The translations under genes were made by a program, and so were the position numbers. The notes beneath the pieces are model-generated. The model saw only the letters and a program-made list of their open reading frames with translations. It ran no database searches and had not been told where the DNA came from. A stretch of DNA of 64,000 nucleotides. Origin: Pseudogemmobacter lacusdianii (GTDB taxonomy: Bacteria > Pseudomonadota > Alphaproteobacteria > Rhodobacterales > Rhodobacteraceae). This document shows positions 6,273-36,257 of the stretch, one piece after another; positions within the stretch are counted from its first letter, which is position 1, and each line of letters starts with the position of its first letter. Location: positions 1 to 64,000 of the forward strand of contig NZ_JAVDBT010000012.1 in the NCBI RefSeq assembly GCF_030848395.1. The letters are read 5' to 3'.

Positions 6273-6325
6273 CGCGGCAAGAAACGCCTGCGGCTCCCGC
6301 GGGCCCTACCCCTATTGGAGTGACC

Positions 6326-6544: not shown

Positions 6545-6550
6545 GCCGTC

Positions 6551-8369: not shown

Positions 8370-8373
8370 CCTC

Positions 8374-8402
8374 TGGACACCCCCGAACGCCTTGGCTATT
8401 AC
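8374..8402 (+). promoter_or_regulatory. Candidate promoter of tRNA-Phe
   Basis: TGGACA (8374-8379, five of six to TTGACA) and TATTAC (8397-8402) are 17 bp apart, ending 15 bp upstream of the mature tRNA 5' end. Confidence 0.6.
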
Positions 8403-8417
8403 GCCCACACCAAGCGT

Positions 8418-8493
8418 GCCCAGATAGCTCAGTTGGTAGAGCAGCGGATTGAAGATCCGCGTGTCCGCGGTTCGAATCCGTGTCTGGGCACCA
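8418..8493 (+). tRNA. tRNA-Phe (anticodon GAA)
   Basis: A complete 76-nt cloverleaf: acceptor GCCCAGA/TCTGGGC, D arm TAGCTCAGTTGGTAGAGC, anticodon loop ATTGAAGAT carrying GAA, T arm with GGTTCGAATCC, and encoded ACCA. It reads UUC/UUU. Confidence 0.97.
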
Positions 8494-16447: not shown

Positions 16448-16465
16448 GAGAGAAAGGGCCTTGTG

Positions 16466-18862: not shown

Positions 18863-18958
18863 GGCCTGCCCCAGCTTTGCTCCGCGTAAAGCCGCGGGCC
18901 TATGCACATAGCATGCCGCTCTCTATACTGGCGCTTCCGCTTCAGGGTAGGGCCAGCC

Positions 18959-19888: not shown

Positions 19889-19890
19889 TC

Positions 19891-20808
19891 CTATTTCGTC
19901 GCGTGGAACATCGGCAGGGCTCCACCGAGATACCCCCCCTCCCACGACCAATAAAAAAGACAACGGGCATCGCGGAAGCCAGCCAAGCGCAGCTCGTCCA
20001 GAATGTCCCAACCAAAGTGATAAAAGCACAGCACCCCGTCGCGCGACAGCGGATCGCCGTGATATTCGGGTTCCAGCAGATGCTCGATGCCGCCCCCGTC
20101 TTTCAAGCGCGCCCTCACCAAAGTTTGCGGCAGATCGGCGCGAAAGGGGAAGGTCGCCAAGAGATGCCCGCCGGGCTTCAGCACCCGAAACATCTCACGC
20201 AAGCCAGCGCGGTAATCGGGCACATGCTCCATCACCTCAAAAGTGCCTATGATATCAAAGCTTTCATCCGCAAAGCTTAGCGCGGTCACATCCTCATGCC
20301 GCAAGCCTGCGCCATTGCGCCCCCCGGACAACGTCCCGTCTTGCAGATATTCGCTGCCGACAAGACCTTTGCACAAGGGTTGCAACAAGCCAAAGAGCGG
20401 CGTCGTCTGTTCGGTTAGGTAACAGGCTGAGTTGGCATTCAGCCCGCAACTGGCAAAAAGGTAATGCATCGCGCCGCGCAGCCGCGGGTTCAAAGCGCAA
20501 TGGCCACAGACCAACCGCTCGCGCCAAACCGGCTCACGCGAGCCATCATCATGGGTGTAATAGATTGCCCAATCGCAGCTGAACTCCGTATCCAAGCCGC
20601 AAAGATCGCAATGGCCGGGGTAGCGCACCGGATCACCGCCGCTGCGGCCAAGCTCCATCTCACGCGCACGACGCTGCATGAATTCGGGCCCCAATTCGGC
20701 CGATGCCTCTTGGAAGTCGGCATAGGTACGGAAGGACAGCGCCTTAAGTGCGGGCAAAGACCCCGCCCCGGATTGCGAAAGGAATTCAAGCCTTTGGCTA
20801 ACGCCCAT
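19891..20808 (-). CDS. Class I SAM-dependent methyltransferase with zinc-knuckle segment
   Basis: A 305-residue protein. Residues 60-110 contain two cysteine pairs (HCDLCG and VCGHC) likely to bind zinc. The following Rossmann-type methyltransferase core has ADESFDIIGTFEVMEHVPD and a FRVLKPGGHLLATFPF segment typical of methyltransferase type 11. The ATG at 20808 overlaps the 3' end of the sulfotransferase gene by 11 bp, so both are probably in one transcript. An upstream in-frame ATG at 20874 would overlap more deeply. The substrate may be the same glycan. Confidence 0.82.
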   Translation of the reverse strand: MGVSQRLEFLSQSGAGSLPALKALSFRTYADFQEASAELGPEFMQRRAREMELGRSGGDPVRYPGHCDLCGLDTEFSCDWAIYYTHDDGSREPVWRERLVCGHCALNPRLRGAMHYLFASCGLNANSACYLTEQTTPLFGLLQPLCKGLVGSEYLQDGTLSGGRNGAGLRHEDVTALSFADESFDIIGTFEVMEHVPDYRAGLREMFRVLKPGGHLLATFPFRADLPQTLVRARLKDGGGIEHLLEPEYHGDPLSRDGVLCFYHFGWDILDELRLAGFRDARCLFYWSWEGGYLGGALPMFHATK

Positions 20809-23233
20809 CGCCGGACCTTTCTTGAACTTGGCGATTGAATGCCGCGACCAATTGCGAAATCTCGTTCTCGCCAAACCCGACAGTCAGCCCGCCGTTCGAG
20901 CAGAGATCCCCGCCCATCGAGGCCCGAGCAATCCGCGCGCCGCCCGCTTCGACTCTGAGCTTGAAACCGCGGGTCTGGCCCTCGAAGGGGCGGATCAGCC
21001 GAGGCAGAACCCCCAACGCATCCTTCGTGAAGTCTGCTGCTTGATATTGGCGCCGCAAATCTCCCCCCAAATCGACGGTCAGCACAGCTTCGGGATCCAG
21101 CGCCGCCTCGATCACGATCCAGCCGTCCTTCACCCAAGGCGAATAATGCCGAATGTTGCTACCGCTTAGGCTACTGCCCGCCGCCATCATCACCTGCCGC
21201 GCAGGTGCGGGCAGCCCCTCCTCCTGCACCTCCACCAGCCTCGCGTTGCCTTCCACGCTCCAACCCTCAAGCCCCAAGCGGAAGCTGCAATTCGAGATGA
21301 TATCGGTCATGTAATCGACGAAACTCCAGGTGGCGTAGCCCACAGTTCGCGCATCAAACCAATCGACCATCATGCCCAAAAATCTTTTGATTTCCGAAGC
21401 TTCCAACGGTTCAAACTGGCTGAACACCTTCTCACGCATCACAAAATTGAACTGATCGACAAAGGCTTTGCTGAAAGGCGCCACCTGCCGCGTGTGCATA
21501 TGGGCCCGCTCCATCCCCTCGACCGCCTGTTCCGCAGTCCGAGGCGTCGGGCCAATCATCATATAAGTGCCGAAATAGGTGCCAAGCACATCCGTGTCTG
21601 GCTCAATCATCTGTTTGTGGTGGATATAGGGATGCATGGTGCCAGTGGCGTCATAGACCGGAGTGTGATCGACACGAACCTCCAAGGTCACCGGCGGAAA
21701 AACCTTCTTTATCATATACATGAACTCGACATAGCAGTCGTCGATATGCTCAAGATATCCAATCAGATCGGGGTCTTTCAGATCTGGTATCCCCTTGGCG
21801 CCCCCCCGGTAGCCGATCTCTTTCGCCATCAGCGCTTTGCGTTCAGGCGGCTCCTTGGTGGCCAGATTGATCGGGTTTGAGATCAGATCTTCCCAAGTGG
21901 TGAACCCCATCAAGAACAACGGGTCATCCTTCACCATCTGCCAAAGCTCGGCCAAAATAGTCAGGTAGTTTTGCTGGATTGGGCCCGGAGAGATCAGCGA
22001 GAACAGGTGATGCCCCCGATGCTCATCCACCGGATATCCCTCCCAGCCGTAGCCGATCCGATAGGCATAGGTCAGGCCCATGCTGCGGATCCGGCCCAGA
22101 AGAAAGGTCAAGTCCTTCAAAAACTGCGCATAATCCGCCGGGCGCTTGCGCTTCAACAGCTCAAGCCCGGCAGGGATCAGAAGAATAACCGTGTTGTAAC
22201 CATTATCGCGCAGCGCGTGCAGCAGCCGGTCTGCCAATTCGGGGCGAAAACTGTCCCAGACATTCACCGGCCAAGCATCGCCATAATAATAGCTCCCGCG
22301 GATCTTCGTGATCCCAGCGCGCTGCAAGCGTTGGCTGATGAGCTCTCGGTGGCTCAGTGCGCTCTGCTCCGTTTCGGCCGGCAAATACTGACCGCCCCAC
22401 ATCAACTTCGCATAATCAGCTGCTTCGTCCTTCTTCCGCGCAGACCGCGCCCCCTTTTCCACCACCGCCGAGGCAGAAAAGCGTTGAGCGTTCTTGCGAA
22501 AATGCGCCACGGCTTGATGATAAAGCTGTGTATCCACCCCATGCGCGTCATAAAGGATCGCCAACTCTTTGCGCGACAGTTGCGAGCGATCAAAGAGCTT
22601 GCGGAACTTGCCGCTGTCGCGCAGCCGCGGCAAGTTTGCCAGATCACAGCTTATGTTGAACTGGTCGCGGAAAAGCTCCATCCCCTCTGAGAAGAGCTCG
22701 GTCACGCCGACAAAGGCAAAATCATCTAAGCTTCGCCCGCTAAAGTAGCGAGACTGCTCATCTTGGATGAACTTTAACTTGGCGAAGGTTAAGAAATCCA
22801 TCTGACCGTAATGCACATGCCGCCAAAGCATGTGATCGGGAAACCGATAGTTCGACCAAAAATTGTACCATGAAATCAACCGGTCAATTGGGTCGCGCAT
22901 CCAAGTGACATATGTGGCATCCCCCACATCGGCATATTTCTCCAGCCGAAAATGCCCATGTATGCAAAATGCATCACCGCCGCCGATCAGCCGGTTCACC
23001 TCTTCACGCGGCAGATCATAATCCAAAACCAGCCGGGCGCCGAACTCCTGCCCCAGAACGGTTTGAAACGTCGTACCGCCGGTCTTTGGAATATGCACAG
23101 AAAACATGCGCTGCTGAGGCTCCCAGTATGCGGCAATATTACGGGCCAAAGCCCGAGAACGGCGCTCAACCATTCGCCCCGCAGTGCGGATCTTTCTCAG
23201 TCCGACCTTCGCGCCTTGCGTAGAAATGACCAT
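20798..23233 (-). CDS. Sulfotransferase fused to a TIM-barrel/CBM-like C-terminus
   Basis: An 811-residue protein. Residues about 43-260 are a PAPS-dependent sulfotransferase: the 5'-phosphosulfate loop HIPKTGGTTF (48-57) and the 3'-phosphate site MRDPIDRLISWYNF (112-125). Residues about 300-650 look like a (beta/alpha)8 glycoside-hydrolase-type barrel (ITKIRGSYYYGDAWPVN, MGFTTWEDL with E448, GYATWSFVDYM). Residues about 648-790 resemble a carbohydrate-binding jelly roll (NCSFRLGLEGWSVEGN). There is no signal peptide, so the barrel would face the cytoplasm or act before export. The fusion is unusual; the C-terminal assignment is by pattern only. The sulfotransferase part is firm. Confidence 0.75.
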   Translation of the reverse strand: MVISTQGAKVGLRKIRTAGRMVERRSRALARNIAAYWEPQQRMFSVHIPKTGGTTFQTVLGQEFGARLVLDYDLPREEVNRLIGGGDAFCIHGHFRLEKYADVGDATYVTWMRDPIDRLISWYNFWSNYRFPDHMLWRHVHYGQMDFLTFAKLKFIQDEQSRYFSGRSLDDFAFVGVTELFSEGMELFRDQFNISCDLANLPRLRDSGKFRKLFDRSQLSRKELAILYDAHGVDTQLYHQAVAHFRKNAQRFSASAVVEKGARSARKKDEAADYAKLMWGGQYLPAETEQSALSHRELISQRLQRAGITKIRGSYYYGDAWPVNVWDSFRPELADRLLHALRDNGYNTVILLIPAGLELLKRKRPADYAQFLKDLTFLLGRIRSMGLTYAYRIGYGWEGYPVDEHRGHHLFSLISPGPIQQNYLTILAELWQMVKDDPLFLMGFTTWEDLISNPINLATKEPPERKALMAKEIGYRGGAKGIPDLKDPDLIGYLEHIDDCYVEFMYMIKKVFPPVTLEVRVDHTPVYDATGTMHPYIHHKQMIEPDTDVLGTYFGTYMMIGPTPRTAEQAVEGMERAHMHTRQVAPFSKAFVDQFNFVMREKVFSQFEPLEASEIKRFLGMMVDWFDARTVGYATWSFVDYMTDIISNCSFRLGLEGWSVEGNARLVEVQEEGLPAPARQVMMAAGSSLSGSNIRHYSPWVKDGWIVIEAALDPEAVLTVDLGGDLRRQYQAADFTKDALGVLPRLIRPFEGQTRGFKLRVEAGGARIARASMGGDLCSNGGLTVGFGENEISQLVAAFNRQVQERSGDGR

Positions 23234-23308: not shown

Positions 23309-23986
23309 TTAAACCCTTTTAAGATAACCTTCTGGATTCCAAGTGACATTATGGCCGAATGTGTCACACCGGTTTCGATCTACTTTATAGTCATCTCCCC
23401 GCTCGGCCAAAAACACTTGCAGCGCCGCCAGCGGCCCACCGTCATATTCATCGGCCCAGCCCAGCTCAACAAGGCTGCCATCCTCGACAATCAAATAGTC
23501 ACCGGACTGCATCGCCTGATCAACAAAGCGCAGCACTGCCAACACATGGCCAGCCATATGAGAGGCATCATCAATCACCAAAAGAGGTTTAGGCAAGGCC
23601 CGCAAATCGGCCAGCCCGATATGGGCCGCAGGATCTGCAACATCGCAGAATCCAAAAACAATCCGTGAATCCTCCAGATCATTAACCGGAGAAATATCCA
23701 GCGAATAAATCTTAAAATCTTCCACACCGAATGCCGTTAACTGATCGGCAAACCATAGGGCGCTTCCGCCGCGGTTAGACCCAAACTCCAAGACAGTCCG
23801 CGGTCTCAATTCCCACAGAATCTGGCCGTAAATGGCAAGATCCATTGGACATTTCCAAGTTGGCCGCCCCCGATAGCTCCATGACATGATGCCCTTTTGC
23901 ATCCCGACGATCACGGGGCGGGGCAATGCCATTTCACCAAAGACCTGTTGCAAGACCATTGAGCGATCCGATAATAAATTTGCCAA
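23309..23986 (-). CDS. CmcI-type methyltransferase/hydroxylase
   Basis: A 225-residue class I methyltransferase fold of the CmcI (cephalosporin hydroxylase / rhamnosyl O-methyltransferase) family. The SAM motif is TVLEFGSNRGGSALWFAD, with IYSLDIS after strand 2 and the acidic LLVIDDASHMAGHV. In mycobacteria relatives methylate rhamnose on glycolipids, so a sugar O-methyltransferase is likely. TTG at 23986 has AAAGGA too close; ATG at 23959 is the alternative. It precedes the sulfotransferase gene on the same strand after a 75-bp gap. Confidence 0.83.
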   Translation of the reverse strand: MANLLSDRSMVLQQVFGEMALPRPVIVGMQKGIMSWSYRGRPTWKCPMDLAIYGQILWELRPRTVLEFGSNRGGSALWFADQLTAFGVEDFKIYSLDISPVNDLEDSRIVFGFCDVADPAAHIGLADLRALPKPLLVIDDASHMAGHVLAVLRFVDQAMQSGDYLIVEDGSLVELGWADEYDGGPLAALQVFLAERGDDYKVDRNRCDTFGHNVTWNPEGYLKRV

Positions 23987-24089: not shown

Positions 24090-24830
24090 ATGTCCGCCGC
24101 AAAGCTGTACGTTGATTTACTGATCCGCACGATTGCCAACACCATTTACGGTGACCGGCCACAGGACCCTTGGTCTGACGCCAGTTATAATGAGAGCATT
24201 CGCAGCGAAGGCCGTGATTGGCCATCGCAAGCGCATTCGATGGTTGGGGTGAAACGGCTTGAAAACCTGCGTATGCTGACCGAGCGAGCGCTCGCTCGTG
24301 GAATTCCTGGAGATCTGATTGAGACCGGCGTCTGGCGCGGCGGAGCTTGCATTCTGATGCGTGGGATTCTCGCTGCACATGGGGTGAAAGACCGGAAAGT
24401 GGTGGTGGCGGACAGCTTTGACGGCCTGCCACCTCCCAACCCAAAGAGTTTCCCGCAGGACCGCGATGACACCCACCACACCTTCCGCCAGCTCGCCATT
24501 CCCCTTGAGCAGGTGAAGACCAACTTCGCAGCTTATGACCTTTTAGACGCGCAGGTAGAGTTTCTGAAAGGATGGTTCCGCGACACGCTGCCCGGGCAAA
24601 GGGGACGAAAATGGGCGCTCATCCGGTTGGATGGGGATATGTATGAATCAACACTGAACGGCCTAGAAAACCTTTATGATAGCCTCTCGCCCGGAGGCTT
24701 TATCATTGTTGATGACTACGGTGCGATTGCCGCTTGCCGCCAGGCGGTGGATGAGTTTCGCGCCAAGCACCACATTGACGCGCCAATGACCAGCGTAGAT
24801 TGGACCGGGATCTGGTGGCAAAAACCGTAG
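24090..24830 (+). CDS. TylF/MycF-type O-methyltransferase
   Basis: A 246-residue member of the macrocin O-methyltransferase (TylF) family. The SAM-binding motif is GDLIETGVWRGGACILMR, followed by VVADSFDGLPPPN, and the metal-binding aspartates are in IRLDGDMYEST and FIIVDDYG. Such enzymes methylate sugar hydroxyls. It is transcribed divergently from the CmcI-type gene across a 103-bp AT-rich gap and converges with the next TylF-like gene after 21 bp. The target is probably a sugar in the local glycan. Confidence 0.88.
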   Translation: MSAAKLYVDLLIRTIANTIYGDRPQDPWSDASYNESIRSEGRDWPSQAHSMVGVKRLENLRMLTERALARGIPGDLIETGVWRGGACILMRGILAAHGVKDRKVVVADSFDGLPPPNPKSFPQDRDDTHHTFRQLAIPLEQVKTNFAAYDLLDAQVEFLKGWFRDTLPGQRGRKWALIRLDGDMYESTLNGLENLYDSLSPGGFIIVDDYGAIAACRQAVDEFRAKHHIDAPMTSVDWTGIWWQKP

Positions 24831-24851: not shown

Positions 24852-25610
24852 TTATAAAACCGAAACTTTCGGATCCAGATTGCGATAAACCAGATGCGGA
24901 TAGGCCTGCTCGGCAAAGCGACCATCGCGCTGGATCAACAGCTCTTCGACCGCCTCCATTGCGCCAATGCAGCTGCCATAAAGCGCATCATCAAAGACCC
25001 AATAGCCACCCGGGACCATCGTCGAACGCGTGCAATCATAGCTGTATTTTACCGCAGAGTAGATATCGCAATCCACATGGTTCAAGCGAATCGCCCCGAT
25101 CTCAGGCTGCATAGAGGGCCAGCTGTCCTCAAAAAGTCCCTTCACCAGCGTCAGATTATCTGCAAGCCCGTGTTTATCGGCCAACCGCTGGATTTCGTCC
25201 ATATTGGCATCCGAAAAATCCCCCTTGCGGTGGGCATCGCGCGCCGCGTCAGTCTCTGGCATGCCTTCAAATGTGTCAAAAGCGAACACTTTGGTTTGCG
25301 GAAACAGCTCTTTACAAACCTTCGCCATGAAAAGCGCACTCCCACCGCGATAAGAGCCAAACTCAACAATATGACCGGGGGGCAAATCCCCAATAAAGAA
25401 CCGCAACAGGATGAAAATGTTCATCCTATTGTGCTCTGAGACGACCGATCGATCTCCCCCCGCCGCCAGAGCTGCACGGTAAAGCGAATCGCGCCGAACC
25501 TGCTCAGCCAAGTTGCTGAATTGCAGCCCCCACCCCCGCTGATACGCTGCCCGCATATTGCGCCCTCGATGCAATTCAGGCGCGCTCGTCAGCTCTGGCA
25601 AGATGATCAT
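24852..25610 (-). CDS. TylF-like class I methyltransferase
   Basis: A 252-residue methyltransferase. The motif HIVEFGSYRGGSALFMAK, the second-strand FAFDTFEGMPET and the metal-type acidic LNHVDCDIYSAVKYS and YWVFDDALYG mark it as TylF-like. It has no signal peptide. It faces the methyltransferase gene at 25785 across a 174-bp AT-rich gap that holds probable promoters. It is a different member of the family from its convergent neighbour, so the two may methylate different hydroxyls. Confidence 0.85.
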   Translation of the reverse strand: MIILPELTSAPELHRGRNMRAAYQRGWGLQFSNLAEQVRRDSLYRAALAAGGDRSVVSEHNRMNIFILLRFFIGDLPPGHIVEFGSYRGGSALFMAKVCKELFPQTKVFAFDTFEGMPETDAARDAHRKGDFSDANMDEIQRLADKHGLADNLTLVKGLFEDSWPSMQPEIGAIRLNHVDCDIYSAVKYSYDCTRSTMVPGGYWVFDDALYGSCIGAMEAVEELLIQRDGRFAEQAYPHLVYRNLDPKVSVL

Positions 25611-25784: not shown

Positions 25785-26519
25785 ATGAAAGAGTGCAGCA
25801 AATCAATTGCGCGTCGCCTCTCCGACTCTCGTTTTGCAAGGCAGTACTTTAAGGGGAACGGCGTCGATATCGGCGGCGCTCCCGATCCTCTTGTTCTGTA
25901 TCAAGAATTCTTCCCACTGATGACCTCAGTCCGCACTTGGGACCTTGATGACGGCGATGCGCAATTCATGGCCGGCGTCACCGATGACACCTTTGACTTC
26001 GTTTTCTCCAGCCATTGCCTTGAACATTTACACGACCCACTCGAAGGACTGACCCATTGGCTGCGGGTGACCAAACCCGGCGGCTATGTGATCTTCGCCT
26101 TGCCCGAAGAAGATCTTTACGAACAAGGCACCTTCCCCTCGACCTTCAATCGCGACCACAAAAACACCTTCACCATTGCCAAGGCGCGTTCCTGGTCGGA
26201 CCGCTCGATCAACATCCTCGACATGCTGCGCGCCCTGCCCGTCACCGCCGCCGTCGAAAAGGTCGAGCTTTTGGACGAGACCTATCGTTACGATCTCCCA
26301 CGCTATGACCAGACCATGACCCCAGTCGGCGAAAGCGGGATCGAGGTGGTCATTCGCAAACGTTCAGCCGCCGAGGTGGCTCAAGGCGCGCGCCAACGCA
26401 GCGCCACCCAGCCAAGCCGCGAAATGCGGCTCCATCTCAACCAATATCGCGACGACCAAACGACCATTCGTGCCTCGAATCCTGACAATCCGCCCTTCCG
26501 CAACGATCAAGACCTGTGA
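25785..26519 (+). CDS. Class I SAM-dependent methyltransferase (type 11-like)
   Basis: A 244-residue protein with the N-terminal motif GNGVDIGGAPDPL, the WDLDDGDAQFM second strand and the core DDTFDFVFSSHCLEHLHDP, LRVTKPGGYVIFALPEED. It is the first gene of the run that continues with hddA, gmhA and hddC-gmhB, 30 bp before hddA, so it is likely in that operon. A role in methylating the heptose or its carrier is an inference from position. The C-terminal 40 residues are polar and probably disordered. Confidence 0.83.
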   Translation: MKECSKSIARRLSDSRFARQYFKGNGVDIGGAPDPLVLYQEFFPLMTSVRTWDLDDGDAQFMAGVTDDTFDFVFSSHCLEHLHDPLEGLTHWLRVTKPGGYVIFALPEEDLYEQGTFPSTFNRDHKNTFTIAKARSWSDRSINILDMLRALPVTAAVEKVELLDETYRYDLPRYDQTMTPVGESGIEVVIRKRSAAEVAQGARQRSATQPSREMRLHLNQYRDDQTTIRASNPDNPPFRNDQDL

Positions 26520-26549: not shown

Positions 26550-27593
26550 ATGCGCGAAAGTTTCAACAAGGTGCGGGCCAAGGCCCCCCTGCGGCTTGGT
26601 CTGGCGGGTGGTGGCACCGATGTTGCGCCCTATTCAGATGCCTTTGGCGGCATGGTGTTGAACGCCACCGTCTCGCTTTACGCCTATTGCACGGTCACAC
26701 CGCGCAGCGATGGGCTTGTCTCGCTCGAGGCATTGGACATTGATAAATCCTTCCAATGCCCCGCACAGCCTTCGTTGCCGCTCGGCCATGAACTGGCATT
26801 GGTCGCGCAGGCCTATAACCGCATTGTCAGCGATTTTTGCAACGGCCAGCCTTTTGCTGTGACGATACGGACCCATGCCGATGTGCCGCCCGGTTCGGGT
26901 TTGGGCTCATCCTCCACGATGGTCGTGGCCGTGGTCACAGCCCTTTGCGAATACCTGCGCGTGCCTTTGGGTGAATATGAAACCGCACGCTTGGCCTTCA
27001 ACATTGAGCGGCAGGATCTTGGCCTTTCGGGGGGCAAACAGGACCAATATGCCGCCACCTTTGGCGGCTTCAACTTAATGGAATTTTACGCCGCTGACCG
27101 GGTGATCATCAATCCTCTGCGACTGCGGCCTTGGATCATCTCGGAATTGGAAGCCGGGCTTATCCTATACTTCTCAGGCCGCTCCCGCGCCTCCGCCGCG
27201 ATCATCGAAGAGCAGGTGCACAATGTGAAAACCGGGCAAAGCCGCTCGATCGAGGCGATGCACCGGCTGAAAGATCAGGCCCGCCAGATGAAAGAGGCGC
27301 TGCTCTTGGGCGATTTCGCCGGTTTTGGTGAGGTGCTGCGCGACGGTTGGACCGCAAAGCGCGATATGGCCGCCAATATCTCGACGGCCGAGATCGAACA
27401 GGTGCTGGATGCGGCGATTGCGACCGGGGCCCATGGCGGCAAGATATCGGGCGCAGGCGGCGGCGGCTTCGTGATGATCTCGGTACCGCCCGAGCGCAAG
27501 CCCGGCGTGCTCAAGGCACTTGGCAGCTTCCGCGGCAATCTCTTCAACTGTCATTTCACACAAGAAGGGGCGCAGGCTTGGACAGTGCTGTAG
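26550..27593 (+). CDS. hddA: D-glycero-alpha-D-manno-heptose-7-phosphate kinase
   Basis: A 347-residue GHMP-family kinase that phosphorylates heptose 7-phosphate at C1 to the 1,7-bisphosphate. The GHMP signature PPGSGLGSSSTMVVAV is present, the N-terminal APLRLGLAGGGTDV is typical of HddA, and motif 3 is KISGAGGGGFVMI. It overlaps gmhA by 16 bp. Together with gmhA and hddC-gmhB it gives a complete GDP-heptose route. That route is the alpha (GDP) branch rather than the ADP-L,D-heptose branch for lipopolysaccharide core. Confidence 0.95.
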   Translation: MRESFNKVRAKAPLRLGLAGGGTDVAPYSDAFGGMVLNATVSLYAYCTVTPRSDGLVSLEALDIDKSFQCPAQPSLPLGHELALVAQAYNRIVSDFCNGQPFAVTIRTHADVPPGSGLGSSSTMVVAVVTALCEYLRVPLGEYETARLAFNIERQDLGLSGGKQDQYAATFGGFNLMEFYAADRVIINPLRLRPWIISELEAGLILYFSGRSRASAAIIEEQVHNVKTGQSRSIEAMHRLKDQARQMKEALLLGDFAGFGEVLRDGWTAKRDMAANISTAEIEQVLDAAIATGAHGGKISGAGGGGFVMISVPPERKPGVLKALGSFRGNLFNCHFTQEGAQAWTVL

Positions 27594-28177
27594 CCAATTT
27601 TATCGAATCTGAGCTTGCGGCAACCAAAGGGGTTTTGGCCCAACTCTATGCCCAGACAGACTACCGCAACATTTTGGCGCAGGTGGCCGAGCTCTACATT
27701 GATCGGTTGCGCGCGGGCGGCACTTTGCTGTTTTGCGGCAATGGCGGCTCGGCGGCCGATGCCCAGCATATCGCAGGCGAATTCGTCAGCCGCTTCCACT
27801 TTGACCGCCCCGGACTGGCGGCCATCGCGCTTTCCACCGACACCTCGATCCTGACCGCGATCGGCAATGACTACGGCTATGATCGCATCTTCGCCCGACA
27901 GGTCCAGGCCTTGGGCCGACGCGGCGATGTCCTGACAGTGCTGTCCACATCCGGCAATTCTCCCAATGTGATCAAAGCCATCACTGCCGCGCGAGACGGC
28001 GGCCTAACTGTCGTCGGGCTGGGCGGCGGCAACGGGGGTGCAATGGCAGAGCTTTGCGATCACCTCTTGCTCGCCCCCTCTGCCGTCACGCCCCGTATCC
28101 AAGAATGCCATCTGGCCAGCTACCATCTGCTCTGCGCCTTGGTCGAGGCGCGGATGTTTGGCGCGCTGCAAGGATGA
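27578..28177 (+). CDS. gmhA: Phosphoheptose isomerase (sedoheptulose 7-phosphate isomerase)
   Basis: A 199-residue SIS-domain enzyme that converts sedoheptulose 7-phosphate to D-glycero-D-manno-heptose 7-phosphate, the first step of heptose synthesis. The sugar-phosphate motif FCGNGGSAADAQHIAGEF and LSTSGNSPNVI are diagnostic, and ITPRIQECHL-type residues (TPRIQECHLASYH) hold the zinc and catalytic glutamate/histidine. The start is TTG at 27578, inside the end of hddA, with GAAGGGG about 9 nt upstream. It overlaps the next gene at ATGA. Confidence 0.95.
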   Translation: MDSAVANFIESELAATKGVLAQLYAQTDYRNILAQVAELYIDRLRAGGTLLFCGNGGSAADAQHIAGEFVSRFHFDRPGLAAIALSTDTSILTAIGNDYGYDRIFARQVQALGRRGDVLTVLSTSGNSPNVIKAITAARDGGLTVVGLGGGNGGAMAELCDHLLLAPSAVTPRIQECHLASYHLLCALVEARMFGALQG

Positions 28178-29454
28178 CGCATCCCCTCTATGTCAGGCAA
28201 GCAGTGGTGCTTGTTGGCGGCCTCGGCACGCGGCTCGGGCCTTTGACAGCCGAGACGCCAAAACCGCTGTTGCCCGTCGCCGGGCGGCCGTTCCTTGATT
28301 GGCTGATCTCCTGGCTGGCGCAGGCCGGTGTTGAGGAGATCATCCTTTCCACCGGATATCTTGCAGAAACCTTTGCGCCTTTCCTTGCACAGGGCCGCAA
28401 GTCTGGCCGCTGGCATACCCCCGAGGGCTTTGCTGTCACCCTCCGCGAAAGCCGCGAGGAGACCCCGCTTGGCACCGCCGGTGCGCTTGGCCTGTTGCGG
28501 GGCCAACTCGACCCTCAGCTGTTCTTGGTGAATGGCGACAGCTTCTTTGCCTGCGATCCGGTTGCCATTGCCACCGCAGCCACGGCCTTACCACGCGGCC
28601 ATGCGCTTTTGACCACGCGCCTCGTCCCCGACACCGGCCGTTTCGGCCGGGTCGAAAGCGACGCTTCAGGCCGCATCACCCGCTTTGCCGAAAAGGGCAT
28701 CTCCGGCCCCGGCATGATCCATGCCGGCATCGCTGTGCTCTCCCACGCGGTGCTGGACCGCATCCCCCCCGGCCCCAGTTCGCTTGAGAACGATATCTAC
28801 CCGGCATTGGCGGCCGAGGGCCTCCTACATGCCAAGCCGCAGCAAGGATACTTCATCGATATCGGCCTGCCGCAGACCTACGCGCAAGCGCAGACCGACC
28901 TGCCAAAGGCGCTGCGCCGCCCCGCGGTGTTCTTTGACCGTGACGATGTGCTGAACCGCGACGACGACGGCTATGCACACCGAAGCGACGCGCTGCAACT
29001 CATGCCCGGCGCGGCCCGCGCCGTAGCGCTCGCCCGCCAGCGCGGCTTTCGCACCGTTGTGGTGACCAACCAATCCGGCATTGCGCGTGGCCTTTACGAT
29101 GAACCCACCATGCGCCGCTTCCACCAAGCCCTGAATGCACAGGTGCGGGCCGAGGCTGGGGGTTGGATTGACGCCTTCTACCATTGCCCCTTTCACCCCG
29201 ATGCCCCTTTGCCCGCCTATCGCGCCGCCAACCATCCAGACCGAAAACCCAATCCAGGCATGATTTTACGCGCCGCCGCGGATCTTTTCATTGACCTGCC
29301 CGGCTCGCTGCTGGTTGGCGATAAAGACAGCGATATCGCGGCGGCCAATGCCACCGGCATCACCGGCCTTCTTCACCAATCCGGAGATCTGGCCGAGAGG
29401 CTGGCCGAAGCACTCGACCGGCTCAGCCCCTCTGCAAGCGGAGGGGCTGAATGA
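28174..29454 (+). CDS. Fused heptose-1-phosphate guanylyltransferase and heptose-bisphosphate phosphatase
   Basis: A 426-residue fusion. Residues 1-245 are a sugar-nucleotidyltransferase of the HddC type (LVGGLGTRLGPLTAETPKPL, FLVNGDSFFACD). Residues 249-426 are a HAD-IIIA phosphatase of the GmhB type (FFDRDDVLNRDDDGY with D255/D257, VVTNQSGIARG, LLVGDKDSDIAAA). The zinc loop of GmhB is degenerate: CPFHPDAPLP lacks the second cysteine pair. Together the halves remove the 7-phosphate and make GDP-heptose. ATGA overlaps at both ends show tight coupling with gmhA and the giant glycosyltransferase. Confidence 0.9.
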   Translation: MTHPLYVRQAVVLVGGLGTRLGPLTAETPKPLLPVAGRPFLDWLISWLAQAGVEEIILSTGYLAETFAPFLAQGRKSGRWHTPEGFAVTLRESREETPLGTAGALGLLRGQLDPQLFLVNGDSFFACDPVAIATAATALPRGHALLTTRLVPDTGRFGRVESDASGRITRFAEKGISGPGMIHAGIAVLSHAVLDRIPPGPSSLENDIYPALAAEGLLHAKPQQGYFIDIGLPQTYAQAQTDLPKALRRPAVFFDRDDVLNRDDDGYAHRSDALQLMPGAARAVALARQRGFRTVVVTNQSGIARGLYDEPTMRRFHQALNAQVRAEAGGWIDAFYHCPFHPDAPLPAYRAANHPDRKPNPGMILRAAADLFIDLPGSLLVGDKDSDIAAANATGITGLLHQSGDLAERLAEALDRLSPSASGGAE

Positions 29455-32400
29455 GCAAAGGCACCGGCCCCACCTCTGCCTCCTCCCCCGCCTCCAACCT
29501 TCACGAGCGCGTGCTCGCCGCGGCATTCGCGGCCAACACCGCGTATCTGACCGATGTGGTCAGCTGGCATGCGCATGTGCCCTTTGCCCATGCGCTGATT
29601 GATCTGCTGACCCCTGCCTTGGTGGTCGAGCTTGGCGTGCATCAGGGCGACTCGCTTCTCTCCATCGCCGCCGCACTTCAGCACTTTGGCCAAGCGGGAA
29701 AGGTCACCGGCATCGACACTTGGGAAGGGGACGACCATGCCGGCAGCTACGACGGCAATGCCGTATTCCAAGGCGTCCAAGCGCGCGCCGCCGCCCTTGC
29801 CCCGCGTGTCACCCTCCTGCGCGCCACCTTTGACAAGGCCCTTCCCACCTTCGCCGATGGCTCCGTCGATCTTTTGCACATCGACGGTCTGCACACCTAT
29901 GACGCCGTTCGCCATGACTTCGAAAGCTGGCGCCCCAAACTTTCCCCGCGCAGCGTGGTCATGCTCCACGACACCGCCGTGCGCAGCGACGATTTCGGCG
30001 TCTACCGGTTATGGGAGGAGATCGCGCATCTCGGCCCCTCATATAACTTCAGCTTTGGCAACGGCTTAGGCGTGCTGGCCTTGGGCGCCAAAGTGCCAGC
30101 CGATGTGCTCCATCTTCTCGACCTGCTCGCCCATGACCAACGCCTCACCGATACCCTCACCGCGATTGGTGAGGCGTTGGAGGGCCGCTCGATGCGCCGC
30201 GCCCTCTTGGCTCGGACCAAGGGCCTTGAGACCGAGCTTGACGCGATGCGCAAGGTCGCGAGCGATGAGATTTCCCGGCTGAACAGCGAACACACCGCCC
30301 TCACCCAGCGCGCCGCCCAGCGCTTTACCGGGCTTGAGGCTGAACGCGACGCGGCCCTTCAGGCCCAACAACGCCTGCAAGACGAGCTTGACGCGCTCAC
30401 CGCCCGCAACCGCGTGGACGCAGCCGAGTTCGCACAAGAGCACGCCCGGCTCGAAGCCTTGATCGAAGCCGACCGATGCGCCGCCCGCATTGAAATCGAC
30501 CGGCTCAACCGCGCCTATGCGGTCCTGCAGCGCGACAGCCAAGCCGCTTTGCAGGCGGCCCGACTCAAAAGCCGCGCGCTGCGCGCCGTCAAATCCGTGG
30601 GGCGACCGCTTTTTCACGCGCTCCCCCTCTCCCGCCAAACCAAGCAGCGGCTGCGCTTGTCACTGATCGCCAAGCACGGCGCGGCGCTGGAACTTGTGCC
30701 AAGCAAAGCGCCGCAATTGGCCAGCCAAACCCAAGTCGCACTGCGCCCCTTGGCCGAGGATCTTCTGGCACTGGCCCGCGCCGCAACCGGCGTGCCAGAA
30801 AACCTGCCGGCCCGCAGCGCCTCTCTCATCATCCCGGTCTTTAACCAGATCGACTACACCCTGCGCTGCATCGAGGCGATCCAGCGCAACACCACCGAAA
30901 TCGAATATGAGATCATCGTCGTCGATGACGGCTCGACCGATGCCACCCAATCCCTCCTCTCGGGCCGCGCCGACATCACCTATCTGCGCAATGCCGAGAA
31001 TCTTGGCTTCATCGGCTCGTGCAATGCCGGGCTGGCCCGCGCCCGGAACACCTATGTCTGCTATCTCAACAACGACACCGAAGTCGCCCCGCTCTGGCTT
31101 TCCGCCCTTATCGACAGCTTCGAGCTGCATCCCGGCATCGGCATGGCAGGCGCGCAACTGATCTACCCGGATGGCCGGCTGCAAGAGGCCGGCGGCATCA
31201 TCTGGGATGACTTTTCTGGCTGGAATTGGGGCCGCCTCCAAGACCCCGAGGCCGCGCCTTTCACCTATGCAAGACAGGCCGATTACTGCTCGGGTGCCGC
31301 GATCTTGCTGCCAAGGGCGCTTGCGCAGGCTCTGGGCGGCTTTGACCCAAGTTTCGCCCCCGCCTATGGCGAGGACAGCGATCTGGCCTTTCGCTTGCGC
31401 GCCATCGGGCTTGCCACGCTTTACCAGCCGCTCTCGCGCGTGGTGCATTACGAAGGCATCACCTCGGGCACCGATACCAGCACCGGCGTGAAGGCCTATC
31501 AGCTCATCAATGCCGAAAAGCTGAAGGCGCGTTGGGCGCATGTGCTGCCGCATCAAGGCGCCAATGGCGTCGATGCCGTCAGCGCCGTCGATCGCGGCCG
31601 GATCGGCCGGATCTTAGTGCTCGACCAAATCACGCCCGAGCCGGACAAAGACGCAGGCTCCATCACCGCGCTTGAGCTGATGCTGGCCTTGCGCGACTTG
31701 GGCTATAAGGTTTCGTTCATCCCCTGCTCCAACTTCACCTATATCCCACGCTACACGGAGCTTCTGGGCGGTCTCGGCATCGAAAGCCTGCTCTATCCGG
31801 CGGCCAAATCGGTCGAGGATCACCTGCGCCAAGCCGGTGACAGCTATGACGCCGTGGTGATTTTCCGGGTCAATACCGCGACCGATCACCTCGCCGCGAT
31901 CCAGCGCCATGCCCCGCGCGCCAAGGTGATCTTCCACAATTCGGACCTGCATTTTCTGCGCGAAGAACGCGCCCTTGGCGTCGCCAACCCCAATGTGGCC
32001 GAACGCAACCTCTCGCCCGCCGCCACCAAGAAGCGCGAATTGTCGGTCATCGCCCGCGCCAATGTCACCATCGTTCATTCGCAATTCGAGGCCGCATTGC
32101 TGGCCGAATATGTGCCGCAAGTTCCCGTCGTGGTCTTCCCTTGGGTCTATGAGCCGCGCGGCCCCGGAGCCGATTTCGCCGCGCGCCAAGATGTGGTTTT
32201 CCTTGGCGGATACCGCCATTACCCCAATGTCGATGCGGTTCTGCATTACGCCCAAAACATCGCGCCATTGATCGCGGCTGAACTGCCGCAACTCCGCTTC
32301 CGTGCCATCGGCTCACATGCCCCGCCCGAGATGCAGGCCCTCGCCTCGGACCAGCTGGTGATCGAGGGCTTTGTTGCCGATCTTGCCCCGGCGCTGTCGC

Positions 32401-33245
32401 AAGCGCGGGTGATGTTGGTGCCGCTGCGCTATGGCGCGGGGCTCAAAGGCAAAATCATCACGGCGATGGCGCATGGGCTGCCAGTGGTGACCACCAGCAT
32501 CGGGGCCGAGGGTATGGGCTTGCAGCATGGCGAGAACGTTCTGATCGCCGACAGCCCCGATGAGATCGCCAAAGCACTGGTCTCGCTTTACACCGATCAG
32601 GCTTTGTGGACGCGCCTTTCGCAAGCCGGGTTGGCCTTCGTCGCCGCCACCACTTCGCGCGCGCAAGGGGCGCGGATCACCCGCCGCATCTTGCAGCACG
32701 CCGGCCTGCCAGCGCTGCCGCTGGCAACGCCGCCCAAGCCGCAGCTGCAGCACCTCATGCCCGCCGGCACACCGCCCGCCTTGCACGCGCCGCCAGCCTT
32801 GGCCCATGCCGCTCGCTCCGCTCTTGGCCTGCCCCCGCAGGCCGAGCTCTGCCTCTGGCTGCCGCCCGATATCGCCGCTACATCTTTGTGGCAGAGCACC
32901 GAACCCGGCCTGACCGTGGCACCCATTGGCACAACCACCACGGCCGCCACGGTTCTGCTCGTCGATACCTTTGACGATCCCGCGCTTGCCACGGCCTTGG
33001 CCCTGCTCCCGCCGTCCCCGCAGCTGAGCGCGATCCTCTTCCTGCCGCCCAAGCTCACGCCGCTGGCCACCGGCTACGACGTCACCCATGCCCTTTCGCA
33101 AAAGCCGTTGGCCGAAGGCTCTGCCCGCACGCCGGTGCATCTGCGCCATGCCGAAGCGATCGCAGCCATGCAGCGCCCCTTCGTCTGGCTCGCTGACCGC
33201 AGCCTGACCGGCTTCCCCGGCCTTACCCTTTTGCGTTTTGCCTAA
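29451..33245 (+). CDS. Methyltransferase-coiled coil-GT2-GT4 multidomain protein
   Basis: A 1264-residue protein. Residues about 50-215 are a class I methyltransferase (VVELGVHQGDSLLSIA, HIDGLHTYDAVRHDFESW). Residues 255-370 form a charged coiled coil. Residues 455-690 are a GT2 domain (ASLIIPVFNQIDYT, VVDDGSTDATQ at about 491, YLNNDTEV, GEDSDLAFRLR). Residues 717-1085 are a GT4 domain (ILVLDQITPEPDKDAGS, PLRYGAGLKGKIITAMAHGL). A Pro/Ala-rich tail follows to 1264. It has no membrane helix. It could elongate and cap or methylate a heptose-containing chain. It starts at ATGA overlapping hddC-gmhB. Confidence 0.9.
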   Translation: MSKGTGPTSASSPASNLHERVLAAAFAANTAYLTDVVSWHAHVPFAHALIDLLTPALVVELGVHQGDSLLSIAAALQHFGQAGKVTGIDTWEGDDHAGSYDGNAVFQGVQARAAALAPRVTLLRATFDKALPTFADGSVDLLHIDGLHTYDAVRHDFESWRPKLSPRSVVMLHDTAVRSDDFGVYRLWEEIAHLGPSYNFSFGNGLGVLALGAKVPADVLHLLDLLAHDQRLTDTLTAIGEALEGRSMRRALLARTKGLETELDAMRKVASDEISRLNSEHTALTQRAAQRFTGLEAERDAALQAQQRLQDELDALTARNRVDAAEFAQEHARLEALIEADRCAARIEIDRLNRAYAVLQRDSQAALQAARLKSRALRAVKSVGRPLFHALPLSRQTKQRLRLSLIAKHGAALELVPSKAPQLASQTQVALRPLAEDLLALARAATGVPENLPARSASLIIPVFNQIDYTLRCIEAIQRNTTEIEYEIIVVDDGSTDATQSLLSGRADITYLRNAENLGFIGSCNAGLARARNTYVCYLNNDTEVAPLWLSALIDSFELHPGIGMAGAQLIYPDGRLQEAGGIIWDDFSGWNWGRLQDPEAAPFTYARQADYCSGAAILLPRALAQALGGFDPSFAPAYGEDSDLAFRLRAIGLATLYQPLSRVVHYEGITSGTDTSTGVKAYQLINAEKLKARWAHVLPHQGANGVDAVSAVDRGRIGRILVLDQITPEPDKDAGSITALELMLALRDLGYKVSFIPCSNFTYIPRYTELLGGLGIESLLYPAAKSVEDHLRQAGDSYDAVVIFRVNTATDHLAAIQRHAPRAKVIFHNSDLHFLREERALGVANPNVAERNLSPAATKKRELSVIARANVTIVHSQFEAALLAEYVPQVPVVVFPWVYEPRGPGADFAARQDVVFLGGYRHYPNVDAVLHYAQNIAPLIAAELPQLRFRAIGSHAPPEMQALASDQLVIEGFVADLAPALSQARVMLVPLRYGAGLKGKIITAMAHGLPVVTTSIGAEGMGLQHGENVLIADSPDEIAKALVSLYTDQALWTRLSQAGLAFVAATTSRAQGARITRRILQHAGLPALPLATPPKPQLQHLMPAGTPPALHAPPALAHAARSALGLPPQAELCLWLPPDIAATSLWQSTEPGLTVAPIGTTTTAATVLLVDTFDDPALATALALLPPSPQLSAILFLPPKLTPLATGYDVTHALSQKPLAEGSARTPVHLRHAEAIAAMQRPFVWLADRSLTGFPGLTLLRFA

Positions 33246-33254
33246 GCTGCACCC

Positions 33255-34073
33255 TCACGCCTCATAAAGCAGCGTCTTGATGCTGCCACTCAGCAAAAAC
33301 AGCCCCGTCAAAATCATCCCAAGCGACACGCCGACGACATAGGACACCATGACATAATGGTCGTCATAAGTCGGATAAAACCCGCTGCGCATCAGCCCCA
33401 CGACATGGATCAAAGGGTTATACCAAAGCCATTCACGCAACGCCGCCGGCAAGGCGTCATACATGAAGAACGCTCCCGATATGATGAAAAGCGGCCGGCT
33501 GATGATCGCCCAAGCCACATGCCAAATGTGCCAGCGCAGGAAAAGATATGAGTTCAGCACCCCCACGCCCAGCGCAAAAAGCGCGGTCAGCGCCAGACTC
33601 ATCGCCACATGCGGCACATCAACCACCGCGCGGGTGTCATAAAGCGCAAGAATGCCAACCATCACCAAATAAAAGACAAACAGCTCGGTAAATAGGTTCA
33701 CTGCGAAGCGCGCAATCAGCGCATCAACAAAGGTCACCGCCGGATAAGCCAAAAGCGGCTTTGAAAATAAAATCGCCGTACTGACCCGATTTGAAATCGT
33801 GGTGAACATGAAAAAGGGCAAAGTTCCAGTGGCATAAAAAAGCTCAAAACTGGTTCCAAGTGGCGGCTTTGCAAAGAGAAATGAAAAGGCATAGGTCAGG
33901 ATCGCCACACCCGCCACCGGCTCTAGCACGGCCCAAGCATAACCCCCCGGCGACTTGCCGTAAGTCGTCGTCATCTCCCGCAACATCAGCGCCGCAATCG
34001 CTCTAAAACTGGCGAAACGGCGCTTTGCTTGGGTCGCGATTGGCGTTTGGGCAGGGGCGAGGCGCGTGTTCAT
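33255..34073 (-). CDS. Polysaccharide export ABC transporter permease (KpsM-like)
   Basis: A 272-residue integral membrane protein with about six helices. It belongs to the ABC-2 permease group of capsule exporters; the segments MLREMTTTYGKSPGGYAW, LEPVAGVAILTYAFSFL and WYNPLIHVVGLMRSGF are typical of KpsM/BexB/CtrC. It pairs with the ATPase at 35598 to move a lipid-linked polysaccharide across the inner membrane. The ATG at 34073 has AGGG with 5 nt spacing; the ATG at 34103 is the alternative. It is transcribed divergently from kpsE-kpsT and converges with the giant glycosyltransferase gene. Confidence 0.9.
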   Translation of the reverse strand: MNTRLAPAQTPIATQAKRRFASFRAIAALMLREMTTTYGKSPGGYAWAVLEPVAGVAILTYAFSFLFAKPPLGTSFELFYATGTLPFFMFTTISNRVSTAILFSKPLLAYPAVTFVDALIARFAVNLFTELFVFYLVMVGILALYDTRAVVDVPHVAMSLALTALFALGVGVLNSYLFLRWHIWHVAWAIISRPLFIISGAFFMYDALPAALREWLWYNPLIHVVGLMRSGFYPTYDDHYVMVSYVVGVSLGMILTGLFLLSGSIKTLLYEA

Positions 34074-34259
34074 AATTGCCCTCACTGGCTCGGGGGCTGA
34101 CATCGCATTAAAAAACAGAAATCCAGATACGTTCCAAGTCTTTTCGTTTTATCTGCAAAGGACCGCAAAGCGGCGCTCAGCTCGTAATTATTTCTAGCCA
34201 ACAGGAGGTTTCACCAATAACAATTGGCCTGCAGTGATTGAGAAAGCGAGTATCATTCA

Positions 34260-35585
34260 TTGACCAATAACATCCCCTCGCCTTCAGATCCAAATTCACC
34301 CGCCCCCGCAGCCCCTCAGCCGCCTGCTGCAACAGGCACGCCTGCCCCTTCGACGCCTGCCCCGTCGACGCCCGCCGCTGCGGCGCAGCCACCCGCTCAG
34401 CCCGCTTTGACCGTGGTGCCTGCGGTGCGTCCAACCTCTCCCGATGCGGAAGCTGGCAGCTTAGACATGACCACTGCCGGACCCAGCCGGCTAAGGGCAC
34501 GGCACATCGGGCTGTTGATCTCTTTTCTCCTTTTCGTCGCTCTGCCGCTTATGGCCTCGGCTTGGTATCTGTGGGTCAGAGCCGCCGACCAATATGCCTC
34601 GACTTTGGGCTTTTCAGTTCACCAAGAGAATGGCGCTTCGGCAATTTCCTTGCTCAGCGGGTTCAGCAGCTTCTCGGGCTCCAGTTCAACCGACACAGAC
34701 ATCATTCACAGCTACATCAACAGCCAACAGCTTGTGACCGAGATTGATGCCGCCATTGATCTGCGCAGGGTCTGGAGCCGCCCCGCAGGCGATGTCATCT
34801 ACCGTTTCGATCCCAGCGGCACGACCGAAGATCTACTCGATTACTGGCGCGAGATGGTGAATGTCTATTACGACAGCACCACCCGCCTGATCGAGGTCCG
34901 CGTCCTCGCCTTCGACCCGGTCGAGGCGCAGCAGATCTCGACACTGATCTTCGAGAAATCCACCTTGATGATCAATGAACTCAACGCGATCGCCGTCGAA
35001 GACACGCTGCGCTACTCCCGAGATGAGTTGAACCGCAGCCATGAGACGGTGATCAAATCGCGCCAAGCCGTCACCGCTTTTCGCGATAAATATCAAATTG
35101 TTGACCCAGAGTCCGATCTGACTTTGCAAGCCGCACTTATTGGAGAGCTGCAACAACAGCTGACCCAAGCGGTGATCGATCTCGATGTGCTGCGCGATGG
35201 TGCCTTGCCCAGCGATCCACGCCTTGCCCCGCTTGAACGGCGCGTGCGGGTGATCGAAGAGCGGCTCAAATCCGAACGGGCCAAGTTTGGCCTCTCCAGC
35301 ACCACCGGCGGGCTCTATCCCGATATGATGGCCGATTACGAACGGCTGGCCGCGGACCGCGAATTCGCCGAGGCCTCATATCTGGCGGCTCGTGCAGGTT
35401 ATGAGGTGGCTCAGGCCGATGCTGTGCGCAAAAGCCGCTACCTTGCCGCGCATGTGCTGCCGACACTTGCCGAAAGCTCACGCTATCCCGACCGCCCCGT
35501 CACCCTTGCCGCGATTGGGGTGTTTCTTTTCATGATCTGGTCCATCGGCGCGCTGCTTTACTATTCGCTGCGTGATCGGCGCTAA
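34260..35585 (+). CDS. Capsule export inner-membrane protein (KpsE/BexC/CtrB-like)
   Basis: A 441-residue polysaccharide co-polymerase-type protein. Residues 1-75 are rich in Pro, Ala and Thr and probably disordered. Membrane helices lie at about 83-105 and 412-435. The periplasmic part has Wzz/KpsE features (YASTLGFSVHQENG, FDPVEAQQISTLIFEKS) and a long helical hairpin at 240-330. It bridges the ABC transporter to an outer-membrane exporter, which is not in the window. The start is TTG at 34260 with a weak Shine-Dalgarno; the ATG at 34467 would drop the Pro-rich part. Confidence 0.87.
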   Translation: MTNNIPSPSDPNSPAPAAPQPPAATGTPAPSTPAPSTPAAAAQPPAQPALTVVPAVRPTSPDAEAGSLDMTTAGPSRLRARHIGLLISFLLFVALPLMASAWYLWVRAADQYASTLGFSVHQENGASAISLLSGFSSFSGSSSTDTDIIHSYINSQQLVTEIDAAIDLRRVWSRPAGDVIYRFDPSGTTEDLLDYWREMVNVYYDSTTRLIEVRVLAFDPVEAQQISTLIFEKSTLMINELNAIAVEDTLRYSRDELNRSHETVIKSRQAVTAFRDKYQIVDPESDLTLQAALIGELQQQLTQAVIDLDVLRDGALPSDPRLAPLERRVRVIEERLKSERAKFGLSSTTGGLYPDMMADYERLAADREFAEASYLAARAGYEVAQADAVRKSRYLAAHVLPTLAESSRYPDRPVTLAAIGVFLFMIWSIGALLYYSLRDRR

Positions 35586-35597
35586 GGGGCTTTGGCG

Positions 35598-36257
35598 ATG
35601 ATCCGTCTCGTCAATCTTTCCAAGACCTTCACCATGAATGGCGTGTCAAAGACCGTTGTCGATAATGTCACCGCGACCCTGCCCGCGCGCACCTCGATTG
35701 GGCTTTTGGGCCGCAATGGTGCTGGCAAATCAACCTTGCTGAAGATCATCGCCGGCACCCAAGCCCCAAGCTCGGGCCGGGTGCATGTTGGCGGCACCAT
35801 CTCATGGCCGGTGGGCTTTGCCGGCAGCTTTCATCTCGATATGACCGGGGCGCAAAACACCCGCTTTGTCGCCCGGATCTACGGCGTCGACAGCGACGAG
35901 CTGGTCGCTTTCACCGAGGAGTTCGCCGAGCTCGGCGGCCATTTCCGCCTGCCGCTGCGCACTTATTCCTCAGGCATGATGTCGCGGCTGGCCTTTGGCG
36001 TCTCGATGGGCATCGCCTTTGACACCTATCTGGTGGATGAGATCACCGCCGTCGGCGACGCCGCATTCCGCACGAAATCCAATGCGCTTTTCCGCGAAAG
36101 GATGCGCAACGCGGGGGCGATCGTGGTCAACCATGCGATGCCGGTGATCCGCGAGCTTTGCACCAAAGTGATGGTGCTTGAAGACGGCCAACTGCTCTTT
36201 TTCGACGATGTCGAAGAGGGCATCGCGCATCACAACCGCAACATGCGCGTGGCCTAA
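35598..36257 (+). CDS. Polysaccharide export ABC transporter ATP-binding protein (KpsT-like)
   Basis: A 219-residue ATPase: Walker A GLLGRNGAGKST, a signature YSSGMMSRLAFG in place of the classical LSGGQ, and Walker B TYLVDEITAVGD, as in KpsT/BexA/CtrD. The central IYGVDSDELVAF segment is also characteristic. It powers export of capsule-like glycan with the permease at 33255. AAGGGG lies about 8 nt before the ATG at 35598, which is preferred over the TTG at 35592. It follows kpsE by 12 bp and converges with the RTX gene 16 bp away. Confidence 0.93.
   Translation: MIRLVNLSKTFTMNGVSKTVVDNVTATLPARTSIGLLGRNGAGKSTLLKIIAGTQAPSSGRVHVGGTISWPVGFAGSFHLDMTGAQNTRFVARIYGVDSDELVAFTEEFAELGGHFRLPLRTYSSGMMSRLAFGVSMGIAFDTYLVDEITAVGDAAFRTKSNALFRERMRNAGAIVVNHAMPVIRELCTKVMVLEDGQLLFFDDVEEGIAHHNRNMRVA

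Follow-up and report, generated by a model that had tools for sequence, protein, structure and literature searches.

What might a single polypeptide that joins a sulfotransferase to a barrel resembling those of glycoside hydrolases (GHs) do in a bacterial polysaccharide locus? This question is raised by a gene of Pseudogemmobacter lacusdianii at 20798..23233 on the minus strand of the stretch of DNA analysed in this study, positions 1 to 64,000 of contig NZ_JAVDBT010000012.1 (hereafter the window). From the open reading frame (ORF) and the alignment of its relatives, the gene encodes 811 amino acids comprising a sulfotransferase, a predicted GH-like barrel and a C-terminal domain. We lean, by a little over even chances, towards a cytosolic enzyme of a capsule locus whose product leaves through an ATP-binding cassette (ABC) exporter; such an enzyme would sulfate the capsule glycan, whilst the barrel would bind or process the same glycan.

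An earlier note, made from the DNA letters alone, had proposed a sulfotransferase fused to a possible GH barrel and carbohydrate-binding domain, and all of the motifs that it quoted are present in the ORF of 811 residues (HIPKTGGTTF, MRDPIDRLISWYNF, GFTTWEDL, GYATWSFVDYM and NCSFRLGLEGW). Two relatives align with the protein over ~760 residues, nearly its full length, at 34% identity, so the gene is real and a chance ORF is ruled out. Both full-length relatives start at the position equivalent to Met43, and residues 1–42 therefore reflect either a mis-called start or an extension that only the window protein has. No signal peptide is visible by eye in the window protein, no signal-peptide tool having been run.

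The earlier note had taken the N-terminal part for a 3'-phosphoadenosine 5'-phosphosulfate (PAPS) sulfotransferase domain, here placed at residues 43–255 (22469..23107, minus strand), and this is supported by a Pfam match just over the cut-off, conserved motifs and a profile match to heparan sulfate 2-O-sulfotransferase (HS2ST; 4ndz). The match to Sulfotransfer_2 (PF03567) is marginal, covering residues 38–140 and scoring 22.2 bits where the cut-off is 22, and it is weaker in the relatives, with 20.3 bits for a plasmid protein of Pseudodesulfovibrio profundus and no match for a protein from a Nitrospinota metagenome-assembled genome (MAG). The profile built from the three homologous domains matched HS2ST with a whole-sequence E-value of 0.0033 and an independent E-value (i-E) of 0.051 for the best single stretch, and cytosolic sulfotransferases ranked behind HS2ST in the same search (E of 0.013 and above).

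The motif HIPKTGGTTF (residues 47–56; 23066..23095, minus strand), in which H47, P49, K50, T51, G52, G53 and F56 are invariant in all three homologues, is taken here to be the 5'-phosphosulfate loop, and MRDPIDRLISWYNF (residues 112–125; 22859..22900, minus strand), with R113, P115, I116, R118, L119, S121, Y123 and F125 invariant, is presumably the 3'-phosphate-binding motif. In the alignment with HS2ST, the HGH of that enzyme pairs with residues 92–94, within HGHF (residues 92–95; 22949..22960, minus strand), and its RDPIERLVSYYYF, aligned with the MRDPIDRLISWYNF motif, pairs with RDPIDRLISWYNF. We assume that His142 of HS2ST lies within this HGH. According to the available part of the source, His142 is the putative catalytic base of HS2ST, and an H142A variant could not efficiently sulfate (PMC6094399). 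The PKTGG loop, the HGH and the RDP..R motif are common to all three homologues, except that the MAG copy has RNP for RDP. It is the PKTGG loop, the HGH and the RDPI..R motif that the window domain shares with HS2ST and PF03567, whereas HS2ST is a Golgi membrane protein, as the accessible portion of the same article has it (PMC6094399), and the window protein comes from a bacterium and carries a fused barrel.

A (beta/alpha)8 barrel is predicted for residues 299–648 (21290..22339, minus strand), a stretch without a Pfam or NCBIfam family. Scanned against both collections at E ≤ 10, residues 270–811 had no match, the HMMER filters having already removed most weak rows at that limit. The barrel that the earlier note had suggested for residues 300–650 is moderately supported by a weak model, fold matches and invariant residues that follow the strand ends. 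The AlphaFold2 model covers residues 299–658 and was made from an alignment of two sequences, the window protein and one relative; a model of the whole protein from its single sequence had a predicted local distance difference test score (pLDDT) of 36 and was not used. Strands were modelled at residues 348–354, 388–394, 440–446, 515–518, 590–592 and 630–633, mostly with helices in between and with an extra strand pair at 523–527 and 533–537. Strand 1 is absent from the model and strand 6 is only a bridge, and the positions of both were guessed from the sequence. When the model was compared with the PDB using Foldseek, there were 1440 matches at E ≤ 10, and the five at E ≤ 0.001 were all glycoside hydrolases. 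Glycoside hydrolases also make up 45 of the 50 PDB matches listed, several rows being chains of one protein, and the remaining five are lyases or an isomerase. In the viral structure library no match reached E ≤ 0.001, the best row being a beta-galactosidase (1.7e-3). By sequence, the PDB gave no match to the whole protein and only three chance-level rows to the barrel profile (best E of 0.12), and the best match in PHROGs was a sulfotransferase family with an E of 0.11.

The distribution of conserved residues points to a functional cleft. For each modelled strand end, the invariant positions of the three homologues were counted over the five positions that start there, a span that was picked after the alignment had been seen. 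Polar or aromatic invariants occupy 11/30 positions after the six modelled strand ends, compared to 46/357 overall, and of 357 circular shifts the true position alone reaches 11/30. Invariants of any kind number 18/30 at strand ends and 104/357 overall (five shifts reach that), and invariant Asp or Glu 5/30 and 18/357 (12 shifts). Once the guessed positions of strands 1 and 6 are taken in as well, polar or aromatic invariants rise to 16/40, which again the true position alone reaches. Clustering of this sort at strand ends is typical of the active site or the binding cleft of a barrel. Across the barrel, 13 of the 24 Asp and six of the seven Trp are invariant in the three homologues.

In clan GH-A, the acid/base Glu follows strand 4, usually as Asn-Glu, and the nucleophile Glu usually follows strand 7. 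The window barrel has an invariant W447-E448-D449 (21887..21895, minus strand) after strand 4 (residues 440–446), making Glu448 a candidate acid/base. Asp593 (21455..21457, minus strand) follows strand 7 (residues 590–592, pLDDT under 50) and Trp636 (21326..21328, minus strand; model pLDDT under 50) follows strand 8; both are invariant in all three homologues and may belong to the same putative site. A likeness to clan GH-A (GH42, GH1, GH5 and GH35) would lie in the best fold matches of the model, the candidate Glu after strand 4 and the Trp placed after strand 8; the window barrel differs in having no family or profile match, Trp-Glu for Asn-Glu, an Asp after strand 7 and a place in a biosynthesis locus.

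The C-terminal domain (residues 649–811; 20801..21289, minus strand) is 30–31% identical to those of the relatives, with 33/163 residues invariant in all three, and has no Pfam match. No carbohydrate-binding module profile was found among the three homologous domains beyond one chance-level row, leaving the carbohydrate-binding reading of the earlier note unproven.

Three full-length copies of the fusion were found, namely that of the window, that of the P. profundus plasmid paDPRO (L017) and that of the Nitrospinota MAG (L018). The genomes of 84,980 species yielded one relative, in the MAG (45 stretches matched the patterns and one was confirmed), in a scan that relied on degenerate patterns and would miss relatives lacking them; a binning error cannot be excluded for the MAG contig carrying the gene. 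Within the plasmid collection, paDPRO was the single match in 72,556 records, so a widespread plasmid origin was rejected, and a phage origin was likewise set aside, with no match in the phage collection and none confirmed in viral contigs. Among 394 genomes of the window's family, the only long match was in its own genome, and five others had short and weak matches to the C-terminal query (E of 1.5e-4 to 0.0088, 55–85 residues), which were attributed to chance; the own genome was also the sole match among 398 genomes of the phylum, as was the MAG among 24 genomes of its phylum. In all collections searched, every barrel copy found (3/3) is fused to a sulfotransferase and none stands alone.

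The window protein is 36–38% identical to its relatives in the barrel and 33–38% in the sulfotransferase domain. From the barrel onward, the MAG copy shares 49% identity with the plasmid copy despite their assignment to different phyla, suggesting horizontal transfer of the fused gene. On the P. profundus plasmid, the same IS3 transposase protein (WP_097010279.1) flanks the cluster at 66–1228 and 18802–19964 of the plasmid locus record, an arrangement like that of a composite transposon. The annotation of the plasmid homologue covers the sulfotransferase domain only.

To our knowledge, no fusion of a sulfotransferase and a GH barrel has been described. The earlier note knew of no established family with this architecture, and this stands, with residues 270–811 free of any Pfam or NCBIfam match and three fused proteins across all searches. 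Within the open PubMed Central library, no title or start of an abstract described a sulfotransferase-barrel fusion, which is weak evidence of absence, and the portion available of the text of a review on polysaccharide sulfotransferases does not mention a fusion, a bifunctional protein or a glycoside hydrolase (PMC11625862). The parts are of known kinds; what is new, as far as tested, is the architecture together with the barrel family.

The neighbouring genes place the fused gene in a capsule-like setting. Its stop overlaps the ATG, at 20808, of a methyltransferase gene (19891..20808, minus strand; PF08241, 49 bits on the longer ORF 19891–20874), and just upstream on the same strand is a gene like those for CmcI and rhamnosyl O-methyltransferases (23309..23986, minus strand; PF04989, 91.4 bits); given the overlap and the shared strand, the three genes are probably one operon. 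Further upstream are two TylF-type O-methyltransferase genes, at 24090..24830 (plus strand; PF05711, 330.9 bits) and at 24852..25610 (minus strand), the latter, by Pfam and blastp, 52% identical to one in the MAG locus, and another methyltransferase gene at 25785..26519 (plus strand), 57% identical to one in the MAG locus by the same methods. Methyltransferases are present in all three loci.

An HddA-like GHMP kinase, a putative heptose 7-phosphate kinase, is encoded at 26550..27593 (plus strand), with PF00288 over its cut-off and NF049969 at 384 bits; its counterparts in the other two loci score 415 and 374 bits, all three below the cut-off of 600. The ORF at 27347..28177 (plus strand) encodes a GmhA-like SIS-domain isomerase from residue ~107 (PF13580, 102.7 bits; TIGR00441, 206.2 bits against a cut-off of 209.45), and its true start probably lies further in. 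At 28054..29454 (plus strand) is a nucleotidyltransferase fused to a HAD phosphatase (HddC/GmhB-like; PF00483 and PF13242 over cut-off), which probably belongs to the heptose pathway; its best NCBIfam model is a mannose-1-phosphate guanylyltransferase at 140 bits, with HddC at 95 bits, both below cut-off. An HddC-like nucleotidyltransferase is present in all three loci, again below cut-off, with HddC as the best model in the plasmid and MAG loci. The GmhA-like gene and the phosphatase domain, added in the window locus, join these HddA- and HddC-like genes, which suggests a possible GDP-heptose pathway there.

A fusion of a methyltransferase with glycosyltransferases of families GT2 and GT4 follows at 29451..33245 (plus strand; Pfam and blastp). 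Its P. profundus homologue, 35% identical, is a protein of 1209 residues (4838–8467 of the plasmid locus) with methyltransferase, bactofilin, GT2 and GT4 matches, and the window protein is without the bactofilin match. The export genes encode a KpsM-like ABC-2 permease (33255..34103, minus strand; PF01061, 33 bits, over cut-off; NF050053, 85.6 bits, below cut-off), a KpsE-like export protein (34260..35585, plus strand; TIGR01010, 192.7 bits against a cut-off of 437.5; no Pfam match) and a polysaccharide-export-type ABC ATPase, KpsT-like by position (35592..36257, plus strand; PF00005; best NCBIfam models TagH and Wzt, below cut-off). The best three blastp identities of the window's neighbours to the MAG locus are 57%, 52% and 51%, and the best to the plasmid locus are 45% for the kinase, 43% for the nucleotidyltransferase and 35% for the glycosyltransferase; the plasmid locus also has a Capsule_synth protein.

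Sulfotransferases in such surroundings have parallels. A congener (G005) has a separate sulfotransferase (L002:1498-2205) that is 26% identical to the window N-terminal domain, keeps HGHF, and adjoins an ABC ATPase gene and a counterpart of the KpsE-like gene of the window (51% identity), but it is without a barrel. A Vibrio capsule locus with sulfotransferases is mentioned in the accessible part of PMC11641403. Upstream of the fused gene, the MAG locus has a second Sulfotransfer_2 protein (237–1718; 493 amino acids) that continues for ~250 residues past the Pfam match. RTX-repeat proteins with M10-type C-terminal matches flank the window's capsule-like locus at 16463–18862 and 36274–39912, the first also having a PPC domain.

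Taken as a capsule enzyme, the protein can be given a provisional mechanism, in which we infer the sulfotransfer activity, the substrate, the cytosolic place and any catalysis by the barrel. In the HS2ST-like domain, a His of H92-G-H94 would serve as the base when sulfate is passed from PAPS onto a hydroxyl group of the capsule glycan as it grows, and the acceptor would probably be heptose-containing and O-methylated. The barrel cleft would hold the same glycan and, more probably than otherwise, would also trim, transglycosylate or remodel it; the residues used would be Glu448, which follows strand 4, and the acid that follows strand 7, Asp593, or one nearby. The finished chain would then be exported via the Kps-type exporter. 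A coupling between barrel and sulfotransferase is suggested because all three barrels are fused and both domains are about equally conserved.

Several results weigh against this interpretation. The barrel model is weak (pLDDT 60; predicted template modelling score, pTM, 0.61), with pLDDT < 50 at residues 591–607 and 631–658, where Asp593 and Trp636 lie, and the fold matches are support rather than proof, since those in the PDB have TM-scores ≤ 0.44 and root-mean-square deviations (rmsd) of 6.7 to 16.4 Å. The heptose and exporter assignments are mostly below NCBIfam cut-offs, and the two strong matches to adenosine 5'-phosphosulfate (APS) kinase in the organism's own genome, over cut-off, are each partial and at contig ends; PAPS supply in the host is likely. 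The cut APS kinase matches at two contig ends are possibly from a repeat that broke the assembly. Profile comparison (hhalign) set the three-row barrel alignment against stretches taken from genomes of the window's family, 11 of WbsX, 14 of GH42 and 6 of GH5 (the fragments L035 and L036 were left out, as was L055, which is below cut-off), and gave no tie, with probabilities of 0.10, 0.37 and 0.92%, respectively. As GH42 and GH5 did match each other in the controls (95.9%, E of 5.9e-9), close kinship with clan GH-A is disfavoured; the halves of each family matched each other at 99.85% or more. Either the barrel is more distant from GH5 and GH42 than those two families are from one another, or the three-row alignment is too shallow to reveal a tie. 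These low fold scores and the missing profile tie, together with the lyases or isomerase among the PDB matches listed (5/50) and the empty viral library at E ≤ 0.001, would suit a barrel unrelated to glycoside hydrolases and with some other role, the Foldseek ranking then being generic barrel similarity of a poor model. This is improbable in our view, given the predominance of glycoside hydrolases in the same listed matches and the polysaccharide-locus setting in all three cases.

Other points against the interpretation concern catalysis. Asp593 stands, in a stretch of low pLDDT, where clan GH-A usually has the nucleophile Glu, Trp447 replaces the usual Asn before the strand-4 Glu448, and a cytosolic hydrolase beside glycan-building enzymes needs explanation. 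A barrel that has lost catalysis and serves as a scaffold, binding the glycan and presenting the polymer to the sulfotransferase, would account for the Asp in place of Glu, for the barrel sitting beside synthesis genes and for the absence of a visible signal peptide. The clustering of invariant acids and aromatics after strand ends and the many invariant Asp and Trp speak for an active site, but a binding cleft could also explain both, and we regard the scaffold as a serious possibility that is nevertheless doubtful. It is unlikely that the barrel is instead a glycosyltransferase or transglycosidase extending or capping the chain, with sulfation then occurring on the same polypeptide. In its favour, PF14307, named glycosyltransferase WbsX in Pfam and, we assume, a barrel, is present in 13/120 genomes of the window's family, and in the one protein in which a Pfam scan showed it here, from a member of that family (L032:358-2583), it is joined to the rhamnan synthesis domain RgpF. 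That attachment to a polysaccharide-synthesis module is a parallel only in how the parts may work; the window barrel is of another family, and membership of WbsX was rejected, there being no PF14307 match in the window protein or its own genome and no profile tie to the 11 PF14307 stretches. No nucleotide-sugar site was identified in the barrel either. The degrees of belief given to these rivals overlap, the rivals concerning the barrel only.

The capsule enzyme that we favour has a partial counterpart in WbdD of Escherichia coli O9a, a kinase-methyltransferase chain-length regulator which, going by the available part of its source, is likewise a multi-domain protein modifying an ABC-exported glycan (PMC3482155); its domains are different from those of the window protein, for which there is no evidence here of chain-length control. 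A bolder proposal, held only speculatively, is that the barrel founds a new GH-like family acting in the cytosol on the nascent capsule glycan, that the fusion links sulfation with the cutting, capping or length control of the chain before export, and that the pair spreads between phyla in mobile heptose-capsule cassettes. Since no Pfam or NCBIfam model covers it, the barrel is a candidate new carbohydrate-active family, and, if it is active, one polypeptide would sulfate and process a capsule glycan before export, tying together steps that are normally studied apart.

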